A program made the translations under genes and the position numbers. Positions 8,495 to 25,542 of a stretch of 26,037 nucleotides of DNA are shown in pieces. Where the stretch lies: IMG/VR virus record IMGVR_UViG_3300027996_001047, positions 1 through 26,037 of that record; one strand, written 5' to 3'. How positions within the stretch are numbered: position 1 is the stretch's first letter; each line of letters starts with the position of its first letter. The stretch comes from a virus. The notes below the pieces were generated by a model. That model had not been told where the DNA came from, did not search any database, and worked only from the letters and a program-made list of their open reading frames with translations.

Positions 8495-9074
8495 TGTCAC
8501 TCACTGTTACTATGTCTGTGATTAAGGCGTCTCGCATGGTTACGCTACCCGTTGCATCATTCGTTGAAAATTTAAGAACAATGTCGTACCGCTTATCCTT
8601 CTGGATATCCATGAGGTTAATTTGATCACCATCGTTTGGGAGGAACATTTCTACGGATTTCATCTCATAGTAACACCTCATAGCACTATCGTCTATTACA
8701 CGGCCTACGACTTCGCCCTCTAAAACATTAGTTTGATCACTAGGTTCCGGCTGAGGCTCAGATACTACATCCCACTTCTTACTTTTCCCCTCAAAGAAAA
8801 CCGTGTTTTCGATGGTGCGTTCTTCGTCTGCATAGAAAGCGAACTCACCCTCTACTATTGGTTCTTCTTCTATATCTATAAAAGGTTCTAACTTTCCACT
8901 TCCTAGTATAGGCTCTAACGTAAAACTGCTAGTCAGTCCAAAATGTGTCAAACCAAAGTGACTTGGCATATGAGCCGCACCCGGCACTATACCAGCTACT
9001 ATAGGCTCAGTAATAGGTAGAAACGCCCCAGCGAATAATCCACCCAACGCTTTGTTAAATGTTCTTCTGTCCAT
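8472..9074 (-). CDS. exported protein with Tat-like signal, unknown function
   Basis: A 200-residue protein. The N-terminus MDRRTFNKALGGLFAGAFLP fits a twin-arginine signal (RR-x-F-x-K, then a weakly hydrophobic Gly/Ala-rich stretch), suggesting export of a folded protein. A Pro/Glu-rich linker follows (EEPIVEGEFAFY, SEPQPEPSDQT). The C-terminal ~90 residues look beta-rich. AGAGG precedes the ATG. It lies between nrdA and nrdB but has no visible link to nucleotide metabolism. Tat leaders are rare in phages; a Sec signal or membrane anchor is the alternative. Confidence 0.7.
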   Translation of the reverse strand: MDRRTFNKALGGLFAGAFLPITEPIVAGIVPGAAHMPSHFGLTHFGLTSSFTLEPILGSGKLEPFIDIEEEPIVEGEFAFYADEERTIENTVFFEGKSKKWDVVSEPQPEPSDQTNVLEGEVVGRVIDDSAMRCYYEMKSVEMFLPNDGDQINLMDIQKDKRYDIVLKFSTNDATGSVTMRDALITDIVTVSDNENNFQS

Positions 9075-9127
9075 TTTTATTTACCTCTCGTAATTCTTTA
9101 AGCTGTTGTAATGTCATGACGGCAACT

Positions 9128-9310
9128 TCAATCTTCTTTGTCTTTGAGTTTCTTAATCTTAAAAACAAGGTAAGTCAACGCTACCGCAGTGGCACAAAAT
9201 AAGAAGGCAAAACTTATTGGGTCGTTCTCTAAGACAACCTTACCTCCTGATGGATGCTCAATAGAAACGTCCTGTACTAATATTAACAGTTTAGAATATA
9301 TATCTCTCAT
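9128..9310 (-). CDS. small single-pass membrane protein
   Basis: About 60 residues with one hydrophobic helix (SFAFLFCATAVALTYLVF) followed by a basic tail (KIKKLKDKED), which predicts N-out/C-in topology. I chose the ATG that overlaps the nrdA stop (ATGA), since GGGAG is spaced for it; an ATG three codons earlier is too close to that site. Function unknown. Confidence 0.65.
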   Translation of the reverse strand: MRDIYSKLLILVQDVSIEHPSGGKVVLENDPISFAFLFCATAVALTYLVFKIKKLKDKED

Positions 9311-11535
9311 ATCGCACATGCTCCCGATTCACAGTTTATCTCCTTCTCGGTGTCACCATCGCCGTCAGGCGTGTTGGCGTAGTAAAAGTTCTTCAACCCC
9401 ATCTTGTAACCATAAAGCTGATCCTTAATAATTACGCTCAGTGGAATGTTCCCATCTGCGTACTGACCGTAGTTGTAGTACAGATTTGTACTCATACTCA
9501 TATCAGTAAACTTCTGGATAACAGCGGCGGTATCTATGACACCCTTGTTGTCTTCCATTTCCCAAGCCATAGTATAGAAATTCTTACGCATATGGTAGTT
9601 TGGCACCAGTTGTTTCAGAATGCCGTTCTTGGCCTTTTTGTGGATCAATAGACTACGTACTGGCTCAAGGCCGTTCGTGCTGTTCTGGATGACGCTGGAC
9701 GACTCACAGGGCATAATGGCAGACATAGTTGAGTGCCTAAGACCCCACTTAGCGATTCTCTCCCTAAGACCCTCCCAATCCATGTTGTAGACTGGCTCAA
9801 CCAACTGGTCTACGGTCTTCTTGTACCAGTCAATAGGTAGTAGTCCCCGAGCATACTTAGTGTCTTGGAACTTCTCACACGGCCCCTTTTCCCTAGCCAA
9901 CTCACAACTTGCGTTTAGGAGATTCCACTGGATCTGCTCCATAGACTCGTGAACAAGTTGGAGGGCAGCTTCCTCACCGTACTTCAGTTTGTTTTTAGCT
10001 AGAAAACCGGCTAGGTTTGTTATGCCAATACCAAGAGATCGTCTGTTTTTAGTAAAGTTCTCACCAGCGAGAACAGGATAATCTTGGTAATCAATAACAG
10101 ATTCCAGAGTTCGTACTGCCATCGTACAAGCATCTTCTACCTCTTTCTCACTGTTGAGTTCAAGTAGGTTTAGTGCTGACAGAATACAGATACCAATTTC
10201 TCCATCGGGGTCATCAATAGCCTTGATGGGTTTTGTAGGCTGGATGATCTCCTGACACAGGTTAGACATATACACTGGCACATCCCAAGAACCATGTTCG
10301 TTGGCAGTATCGATATTCATGCTGTACACACGTCCAGTCTCCAGACGTTCCCTAGCAAAGATCTCAGCTAACTTACGTGCTGGTATCTTCCTCTTAAACT
10401 TGAGAGATCTAGAGTTTTCGTACTTCACGTATAATTTCTCGAACTCTTCGTTGTTACCGAACGCCTCGTACAAACCCTTGGCTTCATGAGGGCTGAACAG
10501 GGTAATATCCTGATTCTCAATCAAACGGTCGTAGAACAGTTTACAAAACTGAACAGAGTAATCTAGCTTACGTACTCTATTATCGTCCGTTCCAGCATTA
10601 TTCTTGAGGACCATTATGTCTTCAACCTCATAATGCCAAAAAGGAAGGTGTACCGTCGCAGAGCCACCACGTAGCCCGTTCTGGGACGTTGACTTGACGC
10701 ACGACTCGAAGTTCTTTAGGTACGGGATCAGGCCCGTGTGGATCACCTCACCGCCTCTGATGGGCGAATTGATGGGACGCATACGCCCAATGTTCAGTCC
10801 AATCCCAGCACGACGTGCAGTATACCGCCCTACAGCGTGAAGACTTCCAAAGATGGCATCTAGATTATCATCGATATCAACCAGCACGCAGGAAGCGAAT
10901 TGACGTATATTAGTTCGAACACCAGCCATAATTGGGGTGGGGAGATTAATCTTGAATGTGGAATAGCAATCATAAGCCCTTTTTACCTCATCTACAGTGT
11001 CAAACAAACACATAGCGATAGCCATATAGGCGAACTGAGGGGTCTCGTAGATCTCACCTGTACTGCGGTTCTTAACGAGATATTTGTCAATCAACTGTTG
11101 TAGGCCAGCGTACGTGAATTGATCGTCGAGACCGTGATTGATGTACTTACCGAATGCGTCTACTTCTGCTCCAGTCCATCTTTCTTGGATAGACGGGTCG
11201 TAGATAGCGTTGTCCACGTTTCTCTGTATGAATACCAAGAAGTCAGTTGGCTGGTTCCCACTACCCCACACTTCTTTGCGTAGCTGCATGTTCAGTAGTC
11301 TAGCGGCGACATACTGATAGTTTGGTGCCGATTTTGAGATAAGATCGTTGGCACTCTTAATGAGGACTTTGTGGATATCCTCTGTTGGTATCCCATCGTA
11401 CAGAGATAGGTTAGCGTTCATCTCAATGTCTGAGAAGCTGACGCCATTGATTCCTTTCGTAGCCCACTCAAGTACTTTGTGGATTTTCTCAACGGAGAAA
11501 TCTTCCTTCTCCCCCGTTCTCTTCTTCACTTGCAT
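9307..11535 (-). CDS. nrdA: class Ia ribonucleotide reductase, alpha subunit (R1)
   Basis: A 742-residue large subunit, close to E. coli length, that reduces ribonucleoside diphosphates. Residues 1-90 form an ATP-cone (MQVKKRTGEKEDFSVEKIHK), so allosteric activity control is likely kept. Catalytic features are visible: Cys216 (QFASCVLVD), the Asn425-Cys427-Glu429 triad (SNLCQEI), Cys450 (IGICILSALN), the radical-transfer tyrosine pair in NLYYNYGQY, and the C-terminal redox tail CESGACAI, almost identical to the bacterial enzyme and able to accept electrons from thioredoxin or glutaredoxin. AAGGAA precedes the ATG. It is the first gene after a near-consensus promoter. Confidence 0.97.
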   Translation of the reverse strand: MQVKKRTGEKEDFSVEKIHKVLEWATKGINGVSFSDIEMNANLSLYDGIPTEDIHKVLIKSANDLISKSAPNYQYVAARLLNMQLRKEVWGSGNQPTDFLVFIQRNVDNAIYDPSIQERWTGAEVDAFGKYINHGLDDQFTYAGLQQLIDKYLVKNRSTGEIYETPQFAYMAIAMCLFDTVDEVKRAYDCYSTFKINLPTPIMAGVRTNIRQFASCVLVDIDDNLDAIFGSLHAVGRYTARRAGIGLNIGRMRPINSPIRGGEVIHTGLIPYLKNFESCVKSTSQNGLRGGSATVHLPFWHYEVEDIMVLKNNAGTDDNRVRKLDYSVQFCKLFYDRLIENQDITLFSPHEAKGLYEAFGNNEEFEKLYVKYENSRSLKFKRKIPARKLAEIFARERLETGRVYSMNIDTANEHGSWDVPVYMSNLCQEIIQPTKPIKAIDDPDGEIGICILSALNLLELNSEKEVEDACTMAVRTLESVIDYQDYPVLAGENFTKNRRSLGIGITNLAGFLAKNKLKYGEEAALQLVHESMEQIQWNLLNASCELAREKGPCEKFQDTKYARGLLPIDWYKKTVDQLVEPVYNMDWEGLRERIAKWGLRHSTMSAIMPCESSSVIQNSTNGLEPVRSLLIHKKAKNGILKQLVPNYHMRKNFYTMAWEMEDNKGVIDTAAVIQKFTDMSMSTNLYYNYGQYADGNIPLSVIIKDQLYGYKMGLKNFYYANTPDGDGDTEKEINCESGACAI

Positions 11536-11581
11536 ACTGGTTCCTTATGGTTAAGATCGACACATCCGGGAGGATCACTCT

Positions 11582-13746: not shown

Positions 13747-14673
13747 CTACAAATATGTTGAAGTGCCGTAGTCTAGTAAATCCCTAGCAGGGAAACCGTC
13801 TACGTTACTGAAGACCCAAGACCCCTGACTAGCCAGCATTCCTCTCGCGTCCTTTTCGCGAATCCAGAAGCTACCATCAGGCTGTCCATGCACCTTAGGA
13901 CCGGAATTCCATCGACCCCAACTGTTTTGTACAAGGAATAGTGTTTCATTGAACCTGTCGTTCGTGTCATCACAAGCAATCCATGCCATAGCGTGTGACC
14001 AGCCACTAGATCTTTTTGCTATGCCCTTGGCGTCTCTCCTAGAAGAAAAACCGTAACCAGAGCATACAGAGAGGGCATACCCGTTAGCGAGGGCGTCTCG
14101 TGCCTCCTGAATGGTCGTAACCATACTAATCGTTTTGACTTGGTGCTTCTTTGCCTCAGTCGTATAGATAGACGCTGGGATGCGTTTTCTTGCACCTAGA
14201 CTTGAATTATAGACAGATAGGTCTATTTTTCCATAGTCTTTTCTTAGTAAGATACCACCCTTAGAATGAACATATTGAGCGGCCCCAGAACAGGTCATAC
14301 CCTGCCCACTATGTCTACGCGATTGATAGATACCTTCTGTAGCACTTCTACATTCAAAAGATTCTGACTCGCCTTTGATATCAATTTCAACAGAACGACT
14401 GATATCTAACGCATTTCTCGTCGCGTGACTTACACAGTCTCCTGTTGTTTGCTGCTCATCTGGCCCGAAGTTAGGGTCAAATCTAAGTAATGACTTAAAG
14501 GGAAGGGAAAGTTTCCCCTCCCCTGAGCCATACAACCCGAAAGCTGCTGCACCAAATAAGGGAGTCTTTAACTTACCAAGTAGCTCTGCAGTCTCTTTAG
14601 GGTCACATACGCTCCCCTCAAAACCATCACGATAAGCGTTTAAGAGAGAGCGTGGTGTATCAAACTCCCTCAT
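13747..14673 (-). CDS. papain-like (C1-type) cysteine peptidase
   Basis: A 308-residue protein with the C1 catalytic set: the Cys in QQTTGDCVSHATRNALD (about residue 94; the upstream Gln can form the oxyanion hole), His in SSGWSHAMAWIACDD, and Asn in VQNSWGRWN, the classic NSWG motif. No signal peptide or propeptide is obvious, though the first ~70 residues could be inhibitory. AAGGAG precedes the ATG. It lies directly after the holin-like gene and before the secreted thioredoxin-like gene. Possible jobs are maturation of virion proteins or attack on host envelope protein; it may equally be an endolysin-associated enzyme. The family call is firm, the role is not. Confidence 0.82.
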   Translation of the reverse strand: MREFDTPRSLLNAYRDGFEGSVCDPKETAELLGKLKTPLFGAAAFGLYGSGEGKLSLPFKSLLRFDPNFGPDEQQTTGDCVSHATRNALDISRSVEIDIKGESESFECRSATEGIYQSRRHSGQGMTCSGAAQYVHSKGGILLRKDYGKIDLSVYNSSLGARKRIPASIYTTEAKKHQVKTISMVTTIQEARDALANGYALSVCSGYGFSSRRDAKGIAKRSSGWSHAMAWIACDDTNDRFNETLFLVQNSWGRWNSGPKVHGQPDGSFWIREKDARGMLASQGSWVFSNVDGFPARDLLDYGTSTYL

Positions 14674-20087: not shown

Positions 20088-20432
20088 TTATCTGTCTGAA
20101 TTTTTATCCCTTGGTATGATCTGTGATGGATCGGGACCGAGGGAGATATCGTCTGCCATAATACAGACGGAACTTTTCTTGTTTTTTTCTTCATCCTCGT
20201 AGTTGTCAATCTTTAGCTTGCCAGTAATAGCCACGCAACGGCCCCTAAGAAGCATAGGATTGAGGTTTTCCGCCATCTTACCAAAACATAAAACATTGAT
20301 AAACAACGTGTCATCGTTACGATGATCATTGACGGCCAGCCTAAACTTAGACATGGACGTTCCCTTTCTCGTTGTGTTAAATTCCGCATCACTAGTTAGC
20401 CGACCCGCTCCGTTCCAACAATTCTGATTCAT
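20088..20432 (-). CDS. ssb: single-stranded DNA-binding protein
   Basis: A 114-residue bacterial-type SSB with an OB fold: MNQNCWNGAGRLTSDAEFNTT (the 'n...l.G.L..dpe.r.t' start), SKFRLAVND, FINVLCFGKMAENLNPML ('d....v.~~gk.Ae.....l.KG'), GRCVAITGKLKIDNYEDE, and a short polar tail. The usual acidic C-terminal tip (DDDIPF) is absent, so it may not recruit host partners through it. The ATG is preceded by TTGGAG; an in-frame TTG four codons earlier is part of that site. It coats single strands during replication and recombination with the helicase and RecA encoded to the left. Confidence 0.9.
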   Translation of the reverse strand: MNQNCWNGAGRLTSDAEFNTTRKGTSMSKFRLAVNDHRNDDTLFINVLCFGKMAENLNPMLLRGRCVAITGKLKIDNYEDEEKNKKSSVCIMADDISLGPDPSQIIPRDKNSDR

Positions 20433-20470
20433 CTGATACTCCAAGATTTACAAATTCGGACTGATAATTA

Positions 20471-20665
20471 TTACGCACTCTCAGGTGCTGCTTCCTGCCC
20501 ATCGATACCCAATGTAGAACGTCCCTGCTTCAAGTAAAGCGATAGTCGTTCAATCTCTGCTACAATGGCTACTCGCTTTTCCTCAAGACCAACGATCTCT
20601 CGTTCAACATTCATAAGGTGAACTTTTGCCATTTCCTCTACTGAGGCCACTTGTTCTTCTGCCAC
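20471..20665 (-). CDS. small coiled-coil protein
   Basis: About 64 residues, a single long coiled coil (AEEQVASVEEMAKVHLMNVE, EIVGLEEKRVAIVAEIERL) with a short polar tail. The frame is open further upstream, but that part overlaps the promoter; a GTG preceded by AGGAG (10-nt spacing) is the likely start. It is co-transcribed with ssb, so an SSB or replication partner is possible. Confidence 0.65.
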   Translation of the reverse strand: MAEEQVASVEEMAKVHLMNVEREIVGLEEKRVAIVAEIERLSLYLKQGRSTLGIDGQEAAPESA

Positions 20666-20707
20666 TTCTCTGTTTCTCCTGTTAAAAGAATTGTATTTGG
20701 TTGTTAT

Positions 20708-20736
20708 ATTATAGTCTACAACCACCTAAAAGACAA
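20708..20736 (-). promoter_or_regulatory. sigma70-type promoter for the coiled-coil/ssb unit
   Basis: Minus-strand TTGTCT (20731-20736) and TATAAT (20708-20713), 17-nt spacer, with GTAGAC directly before TATAAT. It lies just after the terminator of the upstream unit. Confidence 0.75.
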
Positions 20737-20810: not shown

Positions 20811-21200
20811 CTATCTTGAGTAATACTTCAAAGTACGGTATTGGAAAGGTACAATAGCGACCCCTGCTACGGACCTACGCCGTTCCAACTCCCGTTGCTG
20901 TGCCTCAATTTCTTCTTTCTGACGCTGAATGATAGCGTCTTTACAGCGAATCCTCTTAACAGCACAGAGTTCTTCCGACGTTATAAACGCTGGAACCCTA
21001 CGTGTCGTCAACGACGACTTCAGACGAGACTTCATCAGGCAAAACCGATCCTTCAGTTTTACACAAATGGAAGGTCGCTCAACGACGTAAATCGCTGGCA
21101 CTACCGCGTGAACCTCAGTAACACAGGGACCGCCCGCCTGTGCTGAACTCACTGAACCAACTGAGGCTACTAGAGTAGCAAACAAAACAAGACCTCTCAT
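20811..21200 (-). CDS. secreted protein with coiled-coil C-terminus
   Basis: A 129-residue protein with a clear Sec signal peptide (MRGLVLFATLVASVGSVSSA, cleavage after AQA). The mature part has a Cys-containing beta-like region (GGPCVTEVHAVVPAIYVVE), basic helices, and a coiled coil (IIQRQKEEIEAQQRELERRR) near the end. AAAGGAA precedes this ATG; an upstream in-frame start has none. It lies between the tmRNA and the terminator. A periplasmic or surface role is expected; the function is unknown. Confidence 0.75.
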   Translation of the reverse strand: MRGLVLFATLVASVGSVSSAQAGGPCVTEVHAVVPAIYVVERPSICVKLKDRFCLMKSRLKSSLTTRRVPAFITSEELCAVKRIRCKDAIIQRQKEEIEAQQRELERRRSVAGVAIVPFQYRTLKYYSR

Positions 21201-21230
21201 ACTTAATTCCTTTCTAAAAGATCTAAAGTT

Positions 21231-21252
21231 AAGTCTCAACCATTAGAGACTT
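21231..21252 (-). other. hairpin between tmRNA and secreted-protein gene
   Basis: AAGTCTC TAATGGTT GAGACTT on the minus strand, a 7-bp stem about 70 nt beyond the tmRNA end. No T run follows, so processing or mRNA-stability structure is more likely than termination. Confidence 0.4.
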
Positions 21253-21320
21253 TCAATCGCTTTTCCGCCGCTTCCATTATTAGGTACACAAAAACTGATG
21301 GAGACCGTGGGAAAAAGAAT

Positions 21321-21594
21321 TGGAGGCGGCGGAAGTCGAATCCGCGTGTTGTATAGGTTTCAAAATCAACAGTTTTTACATGTTTAGTGCCTAAGGCACG
21401 GTTCTTGCTGTTAGCGATAGTTCCCGAAGGATCTCTCTGTGATTGAGTGATGAGGCTCACAGAAGCCCCACAGCTTACGCTGCAAGTGCAAAAGAGTTTA
21501 CAGTTATCGTTTGGTGTGGTTTTTAGCTAGCCTCCACGCCACCTAGCACATGTTGTTGAAGTCTCCGTCTACCAATCAATTCCAGTACGCCCCC
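21321..21594 (-). ncRNA. ssrA: transfer-messenger RNA (tmRNA)
   Basis: A 274-nt phage tmRNA, short for the family (usually about 350 nt). The 5' end GGGGGCG pairs with CGCCTCC at the 3' end through seven pairs, with the G3.U70 wobble that alanyl-tRNA synthetase reads. A T arm with loop TTCGACT on a GCGGA/TCCGC stem precedes the 3' acceptor strand, and a D-like region GGAATTGATTGG follows the 5' strand. The tag reading frame ends in codons for SFALAA and TAA (21475-21477); GTA at 21499-21501 is the best resume codon, giving VNSFALAA. Downstream sequence folds into further hairpins. CCA is not encoded. It would rescue stalled ribosomes and mark the products for ClpXP-type proteases. Confidence 0.92.
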
Positions 21595-21603
21595 GTATTG
21601 TAA

Positions 21604-21620
21604 AACCATTCAGAATGGTT
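21604..21620 (-). other. hairpin between the tRNA-like RNA and tmRNA
   Basis: AACCATT CTG AATGGTT, a perfect 7-bp stem with a 3-nt loop followed by TTTTAC on the minus strand, 9 nt before the tmRNA 5' end. It could be a weak terminator or a processing signal that frees the tmRNA 5' end. Confidence 0.45.
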
Positions 21621-21622
21621 AG

Positions 21623-21731
21623 TGTGATTGACAGGAGTCGAACCTGCATAAACCGACCTGACACCCAATTTATGGGAAATAATACGAGAGTCAGGGTGAG
21701 TCGCCAATTGTCTCATTACGGCCACAATCAC
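21623..21731 (-). ncRNA. tRNA-like RNA with enlarged anticodon region
   Basis: Acceptor strands GTGATTG and CAATCAC pair perfectly, a short D stem GCC/GGC encloses a loop with GG, and the T arm GCAGG TTCGACT CCTGT is canonical. Between D and T arms there are ~55 nt instead of the ~22 of a normal tRNA. They contain CCTGAC...GTCAGG closing a region with a smaller CCCA...TGGG hairpin (inner loop could present AAA, but no normal 5-bp/7-nt anticodon arm is found). It may be a tRNA mimic, a tRNA with an insertion or a decayed tRNA. It is followed by the tmRNA. Confidence 0.6.
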
Positions 21732-22048
21732 AAAAAAACAGCAATCGAACAGGGCTTCTCACCCCTACATCATACCTAGCTTCACTGGGATTTAACCCTC
21801 CACCGGCTAATTCAATTACCGCCTCCGTAGTTTTATAGGCAGTCAGCCTACTTCAATCATCGGGATTTAGAGGAACACCCGACTAGCCAGCGACAACTGG
21901 CGTGGCAACAAAAGGAAGTACAGTTTCCTGTAATCAGGCTACGTCGTGTTTTTATCACCAGTACCTCGCTCGCATATGGGAACGTCTGGTGTTTATTTCA
22001 CGATAGCTACGGTATTTAGCCCCAGGAATACATTAACCTTCCAATCTC
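21732..22048 (-). ncRNA. dense structured non-coding region, unassigned
   Basis: About 317 nt between the 585-residue gene and the tRNA-like RNA with no supported ORF. Minus-strand hairpins include GTATT/AATAC (22012-22031 area), ACCAG/CTGGT, GCCAG TTGTCG CTGGC, TCGGG/CCCGA, TAGGC TGACT GCCTA and AGGG/CCCT. Two loops carry TTCCT...CTAAAT, distantly like the TTCCTAT motif of the array upstream. It ends with seven T directly before the tRNA-like RNA, as element E ends in eight T before element D. No match to a known class that I can name; degenerate tRNAs or one folded RNA are both possible. Confidence 0.5.
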
Positions 22049-23806
22049 CTACTTGAATAGCTTAGTAAAGCTATCCTTTGTCAACTTATCCACAGAGAAG
22101 TCTAGGACTTCATCCTCTGGATCGATTTCAGTAACAACTTCCGCACCCAGTGTTTGTAGCAACAGTCCGAAGTCAAACACGCTCTTGTATTGTTCGTACA
22201 GAGCCTGCACTCCCAATGTGTTTCTACCTCCGACCCTTGCGTGACCAGCACCAAAGTTCAGAAGAACAAAAGACTGAGTATCGTTCGATTCAGGCAAAAA
22301 CATCCCAAGGATCATTTGCTTCTGAACCGCTTCAGTCCGTACTTCCATCGTAACCTTATTGGGGTCCATCAGGAACTTCTTGTCAACACTGTCTCCAGCA
22401 CCAACAATGATCTTGTATCCGGATGTATCAGACCCTGAGTATACGTTATTATGTACAAGCCAAGGCTGATTAGTCCCACTCTTACAGTGTAGGTATTCCA
22501 CAGCCCCGCTAGGAGCGTTAGTAATGTCCCCACTGTAAGTAAGTAACCCCGTAGAGTACCCAGCGTTCCAACCAATCTTTTCACCAGTAATAGCACTGGC
22601 AGAGAGGTCAAGGTCACGAGCACCCCAAGCATTTTCCCAGTAGATCCCAACGCATAGCTTTTCTCCGAAAAACTTGCTGCCCGTAGGAATATTCCCCACA
22701 AACATCTTTTCAGAGGTAGGCACAGCGTATGATACATCCTCTGGAAGGAAAACCTTAGTCCCTAACAGATTCCAACGCTTAGTAGCGTAGTCAGACAGGA
22801 AATTAAAGTTCTGCACCATGTCCAAGACCTTAGGTGCATTACCTTCCTTAACCCAACTCTTACCATTACGAATACGGTAATTGAATACAGTTTGACCCTG
22901 CATACGATTGAAAACCGCAGTCATAGCTTTGAACACAGCGAAGGGCGTAGCGTTGTCCAACCAGTGAAGGTCACAAGTAGTCAACACACGACTTGTCACT
23001 TCATTCAAAGCGTTCTGTGGAACAGGCTTATGACGAGTCTTAGACAGCTTTGAGATCTTATTGATGACAGCAGGGCATCGACCCTTGAATGCCAAAAACA
23101 GTGGCTTAAAGCGATTGAAGATGGTCGCCAGACGGTCCACTCCATGAGCACGGAACTGAACAGATGGGTTAAAAGACGATTCCTTGATAGCAGCAATAGC
23201 CTTGTCATTCTTGATCAACAGGGTTTCCCCAGTCGCACGGTAGATGACGTAACGGAAGAACTCCATTGTATCGTCAGGAATAACGCCATACGCATCAGCA
23301 ATCTTGATGATCGCTTCTTTGTTCTTAACGCCTTCCTTTCCGGTAAATGAGTAGTTCAATTCGTCATGTAGAATAGATAGCAAACTGTCAACGGTTTCTT
23401 CAGTCAGGGCGATACCTGAGCGAAGCATGTCCAAACAGCGTTCTGTCATTTCTTCCACGGTCAAACCACGAACAACCTTGAACGTCAACTTAACGTCAGG
23501 CACTTCCAGAACTTCGTCTGGGATGTACATTTCGTCTTCAAAGTTGCTACCGTAAGTAGATGCGTAGTGACGGATCTGCTCCATAGCAAGTTCAAAACGA
23601 GATGAGTTGCGTACCCTCGCGAAACTCTTATGGAAACCCTTGTTCAGGTCATTCCCGTCCAACTTGTTCTGACCATAGAACGCAACGATGCGATCCTTAG
23701 CCCAAGCAGCGTCTGGAGTAACAACAAACCCTTGGTCTGACACGAATGGGTCAACCGACTTGCTTGGCTTGGCTACAACAGCGTTAAACAATTCCAGAGT
23801 TTTCAT
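22049..23806 (-). CDS. 585-residue protein of unknown function linked to the RNA array
   Basis: The largest unassigned protein here. Residues ~35-345 are mostly helical, with conserved-looking blocks FHKSFARVRNSSRFELAMEQ, IRHYASTYG, EDEMYIPDEVLEVPD and NKISKLSKTRHKPVPQNALN. Residues ~365-520 are beta-rich; ARDLDLSASAITGEKIGW... followed by YSGDITNAPSGAVEYLH recalls the pattern of TerD-type domains (LDxS, then GD-x-T), a weak resemblance. I sense a family also present in bacterial chromosomes but cannot name it. GGAAGG precedes the ATG. The five RNA elements lie directly in its leader and more structured RNA follows it, so an RNA-binding role is the leading hypothesis. No TROVE or vWA signature can be pointed to. 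Confidence 0.7.
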   Translation of the reverse strand: MKTLELFNAVVAKPSKSVDPFVSDQGFVVTPDAAWAKDRIVAFYGQNKLDGNDLNKGFHKSFARVRNSSRFELAMEQIRHYASTYGSNFEDEMYIPDEVLEVPDVKLTFKVVRGLTVEEMTERCLDMLRSGIALTEETVDSLLSILHDELNYSFTGKEGVKNKEAIIKIADAYGVIPDDTMEFFRYVIYRATGETLLIKNDKAIAAIKESSFNPSVQFRAHGVDRLATIFNRFKPLFLAFKGRCPAVINKISKLSKTRHKPVPQNALNEVTSRVLTTCDLHWLDNATPFAVFKAMTAVFNRMQGQTVFNYRIRNGKSWVKEGNAPKVLDMVQNFNFLSDYATKRWNLLGTKVFLPEDVSYAVPTSEKMFVGNIPTGSKFFGEKLCVGIYWENAWGARDLDLSASAITGEKIGWNAGYSTGLLTYSGDITNAPSGAVEYLHCKSGTNQPWLVHNNVYSGSDTSGYKIIVGAGDSVDKKFLMDPNKVTMEVRTEAVQKQMILGMFLPESNDTQSFVLLNFGAGHARVGGRNTLGVQALYEQYKSVFDFGLLLQTLGAEVVTEIDPEDEVLDFSVDKLTKDSFTKLFK

Positions 23807-23827
23807 AGCTAACGTCCTTCCTAAAAA

Positions 23828-23913
23828 ATAAGTGGAGAGTAGATTTTTTGGAGCCGCCTTGCCACCGAAGTGGCCCTAGCGGCAGAGGTTTAATAGGAAC
23901 TCTCTATACCTAT
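23828..23913 (-). ncRNA. array RNA element A
   Basis: An 86-nt element on the minus strand. Terminal helix ATAGGT/ACTTAT, then ATAG opposite CC, a 4-bp helix AGAG/CTCT, then TTCCTAT opposite CTA. Inside is a long arm GCCGC...GCGGC capped by GCCAC TTCG GTGGC (a cUUCGg tetraloop, which fixes the RNA strand as minus). It ends 22 nt before the start codon of the 585-residue gene, so it is either a released small RNA or part of that gene's 5' leader. Confidence 0.7.
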
Positions 23914-23921
23914 GTTTTAAC

Positions 23922-23968
23922 TGGGCGAAGAGTAAGTTTCAATTTTTTATAGGAACTCTTTATGCCCA
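23922..23968 (-). ncRNA. array RNA element B (minimal hairpin)
   Basis: A 47-nt hairpin: TGGGC/GCCCA outer helix, ATAA opposite TC, AGAG/CTCT inner helix, then TTCCTATAAAAA and GAAACTTA closing the loop. It is nearly identical in its loop to element E, while both helices differ with compensation. Confidence 0.7.
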
Positions 23969-23982
23969 TGATTTGTATCACT

Positions 23983-24068
23983 GTGGTGGAAAGTATAGGA
24001 TTTGAACCTAAACCCCCGAAAGGGTTTACCATGCTACCGAAGTAGCGGATAGGAACTTTCTGTACCAC
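23983..24068 (-). ncRNA. array RNA element C, with T-loop-like arm
   Basis: An 86-nt element, same length as A. Terminal helix GTGGT/ACCAC, ACAG opposite CC, AAAG/CTTT, TTCCTAT opposite ATA. Inside are three arms: GCTAC TTCG GTAGC, a second arm TAAACCC/GGGTTTA, and TAGG TTCAAAT CCTA, whose loop is a canonical T-loop. The 3' strand could also be read as an acceptor ending ACCA, but D arm and variable-loop sizes do not fit a tRNA. A tRNA-like small RNA is the better description. Confidence 0.7.
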
Positions 24069-24071
24069 TAA

Positions 24072-24184
24072 TGCAAGCGGCAGGATTCGAACCTGCATCT
24101 AACAGTTTAAAATTTGTTAGGAACTTGATTTTAACCGTAGTTGACAAGTAACATCTGGTGCTCTGCCAATTGAGCTACGCTTGC
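24072..24184 (-). ncRNA. array RNA element D: tRNA body with the array motif in place of the anticodon arm
   Basis: A 113-nt RNA. Acceptor GCAAGCG/CGCTTGC, TA, D arm GCTC AATTGGCA GAGC and T arm GCAGG TTCGAAT CCTGC are all perfect for a tRNA. The ~62 nt between D and T arms replace the usual ~22 and contain the array motif in permuted order: TTA, CTTG, TC, AAC, tetraloop TACG, GTT, AAAAT, CAAG, TTCCTA. A flanking CTAACA/TGTTAG stem with an ATTTTAA loop could alternatively be a poor Lys(UUU) anticodon arm with a 10-nt loop. It may be a tRNA mimic rather than an amino-acid carrier. CCA is not encoded. Confidence 0.72.
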
Positions 24185-24241
24185 AAAAAAAAGACGAGGG
24201 GTAAGTTTCATAAATTGATTTTTATAGGAACCCCTGTTGTC
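24185..24241 (-). ncRNA. array RNA element E with its own U-tract
   Basis: Hairpin GAC/GTC, AACA opposite TC, GGGG/CCCC, then TTCCTATAAAAA ... GAAACTTA, followed by eight T that abut the 5' end of element D. The promoter's expected start falls at the first stem base (~24241), so promoter, hairpin and T tract can make a small RNA of about 55 nt, with read-through needed for the rest of the array. Confidence 0.7.
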
Positions 24242-24247
24242 TCATAT

Positions 24248-25067: not shown

Positions 25068-25295
25068 TTATTCGCTTTCTTCCCACTCGAAGTACCTATC
25101 CATAAACTTGTCATAGATATTTGCGTACTTAATGTCATCACAGATTAATCTGTATAATCTCTTAGGGAAGATCCTGAACCCGTCACGGTCAAAGATCTTC
25201 GTTGAATACTCCCAGCTTTTCTCTCCGTAGGACACCCGTATTTTACAGGCATTCTTTAAGAGGGTTACCGTGTATTCCTCTATATTACTCTTCAT
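25068..25295 (-). CDS. small hypothetical protein
   Basis: A 75-residue protein (MKSNIEEYTVTLLKNACKIR...), rich in aromatic and charged residues, with C-terminal YFEWEESE. GGGAA stands before this ATG; an in-frame upstream start lies inside the Pth2-like gene. It overlaps that gene by 11 nt. No family recognised. Confidence 0.68.
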   Translation of the reverse strand: MKSNIEEYTVTLLKNACKIRVSYGEKSWEYSTKIFDRDGFRIFPKRLYRLICDDIKYANIYDKFMDRYFEWEESE

Positions 25296-25542
25296 AGAAA
25301 ATTCCCAAAACCGTTTCAGTATTAGGGTCCACCTCGGTATACCCAAGATCAACCTGAACGTGATCCGCCGACTCCTTCATCATTTCAAAATTACTGTTAC
25401 TAGACTTGAGCACAATAATTTTGTCGGGAAGATCGAAGTTCTCATACTTCATAGCCATATTAGCTACACAATGGCCCACCTGAGCGGCCAGTTTGCCCTC
25501 AGACATTTTCAGGTTTCTACGATAATATACTTTGATGTTCAT
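25285..25542 (-). CDS. Pth2-like peptidyl-tRNA hydrolase, short form
   Basis: An 85-residue protein resembling the PTH2 family (usual core ~115 residues), which frees peptides from peptidyl-tRNA dropped by ribosomes. KVYYRRNLKMSEGKLAAQVGH matches the family N-terminus ('vvr.DLkM.kGK.aAQ.~HA', catalytic His included); KIIVLKSSNSNFEMM matches the central strand ('kivlkv.......l'); DLGYTEVDPNTETVLGI matches the C-terminal 'D.GrT.i.pgt.TvlgI'. The region between helix 1 and the central strand is shortened. GGGG is ~11 nt before the ATG. It lies among tRNA genes and near a tmRNA. Confidence 0.75.
   Translation of the reverse strand: MNIKVYYRRNLKMSEGKLAAQVGHCVANMAMKYENFDLPDKIIVLKSSNSNFEMMKESADHVQVDLGYTEVDPNTETVLGIFYEE

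Follow-up and report, generated by a model that had tools for sequence, protein, structure and literature searches.

A one-piece tmRNA gene before ssb in an uncultured phage: probable re-linearisation, at that place, of a permuted ancestor

Permutation of the tmRNA gene is usually viewed as rare and as a hallmark of three main bacterial clades. The locus described here raises the question of how a tmRNA gene in one piece came to lie in a phage whose sister phages carry the permuted, two-piece gene at the same place. The window, i.e., the whole stretch of DNA analysed, is an IMG/VR virus record of 26,037 bases, for which an initial annotation proposed a phage-encoded, shortened tmRNA and overlooked the main point, the permuted gene of the sister phages. 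Phage tmRNAs are already known; what is new is the gene layout, one-piece within a two-piece clade. We propose that the window RNA is probably a functional phage tmRNA (ssrA) whose one-piece order arose by re-linearising a permuted gene already present at this position before ssb.

The minus strand of the window holds a one-piece tmRNA from G1 at 21,594 to the discriminator A at 21,321. The coordinates first proposed (21,321–21,594) were exact and had been given without a strand; the tmRNA and the neighbouring genes share the minus strand. The Infernal search recommended in the initial annotation gave a match to RF00023 at 21,594–21,318 (−), with 52.2 bits for a cut-off of 47 and an E value of 4.5e-18 (1.1e-21 over the whole record), spanning model positions 1–374 in the standard 5′-to-3′ order. 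The permuted model RF04321 reached 18.6 bits on the window, below its cut-off of 47, in agreement with the standard order. ARAGORN, recommended as well, did not call the gene, showing that this program can miss a gene of this kind. By folding energy alone the RNA does not stand out (z −1.49; 17 of 200 shuffles are equally stable). Nevertheless, we regard the RNA as more than a chance match because the same kind of RNA occurs in separately assembled relatives, with G3.U70 kept while other acceptor pairs covary. That it is encoded by a phage, as proposed, agrees with the nature of the record and with its genes for a DnaB-like helicase, a UvsX-like recombinase, PhoH, NrdA, NrdB and dCMP deaminase; the NrdA protein reaches no more than about 55% identity with those of cyanophages.

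Most elements of a tmRNA can be assigned along the molecule (all coordinates on the minus strand). From RF00023 and the sequence, the acceptor stem joins GGGGGCG (21,588–21,594) to CGCCUCC, which together with the discriminator A occupies 21,321–21,328 and whose U70 pairs with G3; the seven pairs hold in an alignment of three copies, and CCA is not encoded at the 3′ end. RF00023 also defines the T arm, GCGGA-UUCGACU-UCCGC (21,329–21,345), which like the G3.U70 pair had been read correctly at the outset, and a D-loop region, UACUGGAAUUGA (21,576–21,587), without a D stem. Folding and alignments of the copies delimit the two strands of P2, UCAACA-ACAUGU at 21,548–21,559 and ACAUGU...UGUUGA at 21,366–21,383. 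Between them, the sequence contains an H-type pseudoknot, PK1 (21,516–21,547; S1 GCUAG/CUAGC, S2 GUGG/CCAC), which precedes the tag reading frame and its stop, VNSFALAA* with resume codon GUA (21,475–21,501), assigned from the sequence and codon conservation. The stop codon falls within a hairpin found by folding, P5 (CAGC-GUAA-GCUG; 21,471–21,482), followed by a second H-type pseudoknot, PK2 (21,437–21,469; S1 GGGGC/GCCUC, S2 CUGUGA/UCACAG), and by a hairpin, GUGCC-UUA-GGCAC (21,387–21,399), placed 3 nt before the P2 3′ strand, as is typical of the acceptor pieces of permuted tmRNAs. The several downstream hairpins noticed initially are therefore present, and they include a pseudoknot, PK2. 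Only PK1 and PK2 were recognised as pseudoknots, with hairpins in place of PK3 and PK4; since four pseudoknots are typical but not universal, their number was not used to exclude a tmRNA. The RNA is compact, at 274 nt; rather than shortened, it is best taken as having the compact layout found in permuted tmRNAs too.

Comparison with the two nearest copies, L089 and L091, revealed two double compensatory changes in PK2: in stem 2, G135-C156 is replaced by A-U and A138-U153 by G-C. In stem 1, a G.U pair is replaced by A-U. All 53 pairs are preserved in the three RNAs. In controls, 55 of 500 shuffles reached two double changes and none of six slid versions showed any. PK1 is invariant in these copies, hence there is no covariation signal for it; by eye, L084, L090 and L185 each form two crossing helices at the equivalent position. 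When six copies were aligned with MAFFT, 25 of the 52 predicted pairs, including pairs from the acceptor, P2 and the T stem, contained a change on both sides, in an alignment that is loose at mid-length and that displaces the acceptor of L086 and L084 by one column, so that their pairing was read by eye. The 7-bp acceptor with G3.U70 is retained in both the three-copy and the six-copy alignments. T-loops that depart from UUCRA (AGCGAAA, AGCCAUA, AGCAUUA, GGCAGUA and similar) were seen in L086, L090 and L187 and in the permuted genes of L096, L214, L218, L219 and L227; the T-loop of the alpha_tmRNA model is GGCgGUA.

The complete tag with a stop codon that had been proposed, GUA AAC UCU UUU GCA CUU GCA GCG UAA, was borne out. 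The resume codon GUA is at the right position, as it aligns with GCA in L084, L086 and L090, with GUC in L186 and in the permuted L213 and others, and with GGC in L097 and L222. The longer tag considered initially, TITVNSFALAA, is unlikely, and the tag most probably begins at GUA, because related tmRNAs carry GCA, GCU, GUC or GGC at that place. The second Val codon, GUC, appears in the permuted L213, L217, L220, L223, L224 and L225 and in the one-piece L186; as read from these sequences, Val resume codons are not unique to the window tmRNA, and several phage lineages appear to keep short tags that start at such a codon.

A degenerate pattern of the tag region retrieved 11 stretches from viral contigs. 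Six of them (L084, L086, L089, L090, L091 and L093) are full tmRNAs over the RF00023 cut-off and L092, apparently a truncated copy, shares the tag of L086; the remaining four gave no match to the tmRNA model. With L187, the full-length relatives come from seven separate assemblies, some nearly identical to one another; the window RNA differs from L089 in 9 of 277 nt and from L091 in 8 of 277. The tag in L084, L086, L090, L093 and L187 is AKSFAVAA, with GCA replacing the GUA of the window, and these copies differ by synonymous codons; the stop also varies between UAA and UAG. The exact tag-region pattern had a single match among 84,980 species genomes, in Pedobacter, which we took as chance since it lies inside an apparent protein gene where no tmRNA was called; the search thus returned no host tmRNA identical to that of the window; such an identity would, by the initial annotation, have implied recent capture or contamination. 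Recent capture from a host was discarded on account of the lack of a matching bacterial tag region in those genomes and of the permuted genes in sister phages. Misassembly was discarded as well, because the window, L089 and L091 share the same one-piece gene and a related gene exists in L090, L093 and L187. Blastn comparisons of the region with 50,697 phage records, and of the permuted tmRNA from L228 with phages and plasmids, gave no matches.

Upstream of the tmRNA lies a gene for a 585-aa protein (22,049–23,806, −), whose structure model (pLDDT 85) has a TerD-like C-terminal half (3ibz, Z 10.9) and a helical N-terminal half with no clear structural match; Ro60/TROVE was absent among the structural matches listed, which indicates nothing either way. 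This protein has 38 relatives in viral contigs, some of them in tRNA arrays, and one other single-protein search there gave no match. L089 lacks positions 22,115–24,224 of the window, and with them the greater part of both the 585-aa gene and an array of small RNAs, yet retains the tmRNA, and for this reason we dropped the idea of a functional link between the tmRNA and the 585-aa protein. The array, at 23,832–24,244 (−), upstream of the 585-aa gene, comprises four to five small structured RNAs with the consensus GRC-AAA-NNNN-GUUCCUAU-loop-UUAC-N'N'N'N'-C-GYC. Counted up to 700 nt upstream of the 585-aa gene, its core motif occurs 37 times in the window and 12 relatives taken together. In 22 short copies 98.9% of cells were paired, and there were 50 double changes, a level that none of 500 shuffles attained; no Rfam name was obtained at E ≤ 1. 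We take the arrangement to be reminiscent of Ro60-Y RNA pairs. A tRNA-like RNA with an enlarged anticodon loop at 24,072–24,184 (−; RF00005, 51.4 bits) contains one GUUCCUA element; a second one, discerned by eye and missed by ARAGORN and Rfam, is at about 21,620–21,735 (−), just before the tmRNA. The tRNA cluster adjoins a gene for a PTH2-like peptidyl-tRNA hydrolase (25,285–25,542, −; Pfam PF01981, E 1.6e-08). An inverted copy of the tmRNA 3′ end (21,321–21,334), 93% identical over 14 nt, is located 44 nt downstream, at 21,263–21,276, in a segment absent from L089 and L091. Separately, L091 shows no match to window positions 9,074–11,562 over the NrdA gene, and its NrdB matches.

The distribution of gene layouts was examined with a 308-aa protein (13,747–14,673) that has no match in the 50,697 phage records and 366 relatives in viral contigs. 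Eighty of the 366 were taken as loci and 56 of these were searched whole, i.e., the 50 of the layout count plus six earlier ones. Among the 50, RF04321 was over its cut-off in 22 and RF00023 in three, so that most tmRNAs in this uncultured phage clade are of the permuted two-piece form. The initial statement that phage tmRNAs are uncommon thus holds across phages (402 of 18,146 genomes, as given in PMC9004378) but not in the window's own clade, with 25 of 50 over the cut-off. In L014, whose 585-aa neighbour is 66% identical to that of the window, a permuted tmRNA directly follows this neighbour gene, and RF04321 confirmed it, with 80.3 bits in G001 and G002. The G3.U70 pair is present in 26 of 26 parsed permuted genes, partly by construction because the parser required GGG and favoured U; L210 and L232 were not parsed, and L210 was set by hand. 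The permuted halves from L214, L219 and L227 are just 5 nt apart, and processing of their precursors should be unusual.

A tree of six proteins from 32 phages of known layout (24 permuted and eight one-piece rows; 12 of the 32 with less than half of the columns filled) placed the one-piece genes at four separate places among the permuted ones, and strongly supported branches require all four layout changes. The window, L105 and L106 fall inside a group of six, with support 100/100, together with the permuted L118, L119 and L131. A single clade of all one-piece phages was rejected (p = 3.5e-64), and joining the window trio to the L120 trio was rejected more weakly (p = 0.026). The tree from the 308-aa protein alone again required four changes, two of them forced. 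There is thus good support for a changed layout in the carrier phages, for which re-linearisation in place is the likeliest reading, though not the sole one.

The place itself can be compared by means of the genes that follow the tmRNA on the same strand: a 142-aa ORF (20,811–21,239, −) and two synteny anchors, an 84-aa ORF (o84; 20,471–20,725, −) and the ssb gene (20,088–20,444, −). The starts of o84 and ssb lie 593 and 874 nt after the tmRNA in the window and 517 and 798 nt in L105 and L106; after the permuted tmRNA, the distances are 520 and 1124 nt in L118/L119 and 487 and 725 nt in L131. The distance from tmRNA to ssb differs from that of the window in the one-piece L124 and L155, and in the permuted L107, L111 and L117 ssb is more than 10 kb distant; ssb was not found in the one-piece L150, L120 and L121 or in the permuted L144, L167, L173 and L182.

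The RNA may also bear marks of its descent. The alpha and cyano permuted models have a hairpin immediately before the P2 3′ strand that is absent from RF00023. We scored it by a rule (stem of at least 4, end within 6 nt, score of at least 10) that was fixed after the hairpin had been noticed in several sequences. Of 26 permuted phage tmRNAs 21 have it, as do all seven related one-piece RNAs from phages (window, L089, L090, L086, L084, L185 and L186), against none of 20 bacterial one-piece tmRNAs (three more had no anchor). Over all phage one-piece RNAs the count is 8 of 11, with the addition of the AT-rich L053, where a chance occurrence has a rate of 0.42; L052, L057 and Phass-1 lack the hairpin. 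L053 aside, the chance rate per sequence is about 0.03 to 0.27. A comparison of 6/6 with 0/20 gives p = 4e-6 for related sequences that are not independent. In global comparisons, the halves of the window RNA reached best scores of 47 and 58 with permuted phage RNAs versus 31 and 43 with 23 bacterial one-piece tmRNAs, which are E. coli and Bacteroidota only (25 fetched, minus three near contig ends, plus E. coli). Additionally, the 3′ half of the one-piece L186 is 90% identical to that of the permuted L220, and its tag has the same amino acids as that of the permuted L213. In an RNA tree that included E. coli and five Bacteroidota, one well-supported group comprised 24 permuted and 11 one-piece phage RNAs, with both kinds interleaved; L096, L098, L100, L057 and Phass-1 had been left out because their rows are long or odd. 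A clade of all permuted RNAs was not rejected (AU p = 0.222). No clear leftover tmRNA half was seen beside the window gene (one of 16 comparisons at p 0.02, none lower).

Re-linearisation is our preferred reading; in its widest form, to which we give an about even chance, the tmRNA of this clade went from permuted to one-piece up to four times and in the window's lineage the change occurred in place, leaving the permuted-type hairpin as a scar. Alternatively, the resident permuted gene could have been swapped by recombination at the same place for the one-piece tmRNA of another phage or a bacterium. Adjacent segments are indeed gained and lost between near relatives, as with 22,115–24,224 in L089, L124 and L155 have their one-piece genes at other distances from ssb than the window does, and the AU test does not decide between trees of the RNAs; nonetheless, we found no closer one-piece donor, L089 and L091 aside the nearest RNAs are permuted phage RNAs, and the window RNA itself has the permuted-type hairpin, so we consider such a replacement rather unlikely. 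It is highly improbable, in turn, that the clade started from one-piece genes and that these became permuted repeatedly. An unrooted count of changes cannot separate gain from loss, and permutation did arise in three main bacterial clades (PMC11915505), but permuted rows outnumber one-piece rows by 24 to 8, in our reading of the tree the nine-row group with the window would take three changes from a one-piece ancestor versus two from a permuted one, and the hairpin is typical of permuted RNAs.

A further possibility concerns function, namely that the RNA is a decoy or a dead tmRNA that does not tag, like the RNA of mycobacteriophage DS6A with only the tRNA domain. The covariance score is just 5 bits above the cut-off and ARAGORN misses the gene; conversely, the tag frame is complete, the AKSFAVAA copies differ synonymously and the stems show compensatory changes, which makes this the least probable of the readings considered. 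Judging from the sequences, G3.U70, the tag and the compensatory changes point to an RNA that is charged and translated. Under re-linearisation, a permuted two-piece gene would formerly have occupied the same place before ssb, and the one-piece order would have been restored, apparently in situ, in the common ancestor that the window shares with its two nearest relatives. The host alanyl-tRNA synthetase would charge the product via G3.U70, and host SmpB and EF-Tu would bring it to stalled ribosomes. SmpB was found in one of 48 records (G015) and in neither the window nor 35 other records of the 308-aa clade, many of which are fragments; accordingly, the SmpB of the host probably serves the window tmRNA. 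Translation would then resume at GUA, adding the tag (A)VNSFALAA, the tagged protein would pass to host proteases and the ribosome would be freed. We infer that the tmRNA may in this way free ribosomes during infection, a role suggested for the tmRNAs of other phages (PMC7162821; PMC9004378).

These results suggest that the layout of the tmRNA gene can flip during phage evolution. A clade with repeated changes of layout, and with both kinds at one place, is a natural system to study how permuted RNA genes originate and are undone; it also allows asking about the costs and gains of the one-piece and two-piece forms, and about the reason for which phages retain a ribosome-rescue RNA without its SmpB partner. 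Elsewhere, to our knowledge, a reversal of gene permutation is known only from a jakobid mitochondrion, and among titles and abstract openings, mainly in the open literature, we found no report of reversion or re-permutation in a phage.

Among known systems, the tmRNAs of the Bxz1 group and of Bacillus phage G have the standard gene order. The Mycobacterium phage Bxz1 group and Bacillus phage G, included in a list of phages with ssrA (PMC4131195), resemble the window in encoding a complete tmRNA; that of the window differs in its 274 nt, its two recognisable pseudoknots versus the usual four ('typically four' in PMC11915505), its 8-aa tag, where the commonest tag has 10 aa (PMC11915505), and its permuted sisters at the same place. 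Methylophage Melnitz and the SAR11 phages are likewise aquatic phages with a tmRNA, and the permuted form is common in their group, with 17 of 47 Melnitz-like contigs (PMC9004378); theirs is the permuted two-piece gene, whereas that of the window is one-piece, and a glutamine riboswitch, a further point of contrast, had no match in the window at Rfam cut-offs. Mycobacteriophage DS6A also has a reduced tmRNA, which is without a tag (PMC11915505; PMC4131195), unlike that of the window. Finally, in a survey of 97,179 tmRNAs, 79 of them from phages, with three main permuted clades, the mitochondrial tmRNA of Jakoba libera was described as 're-permuted' (PMC11915505), and as in the window a permuted gene is apparently back in the standard order; that case concerns an organelle, whereas here the carrier is a phage and there are four separate occurrences in one clade.
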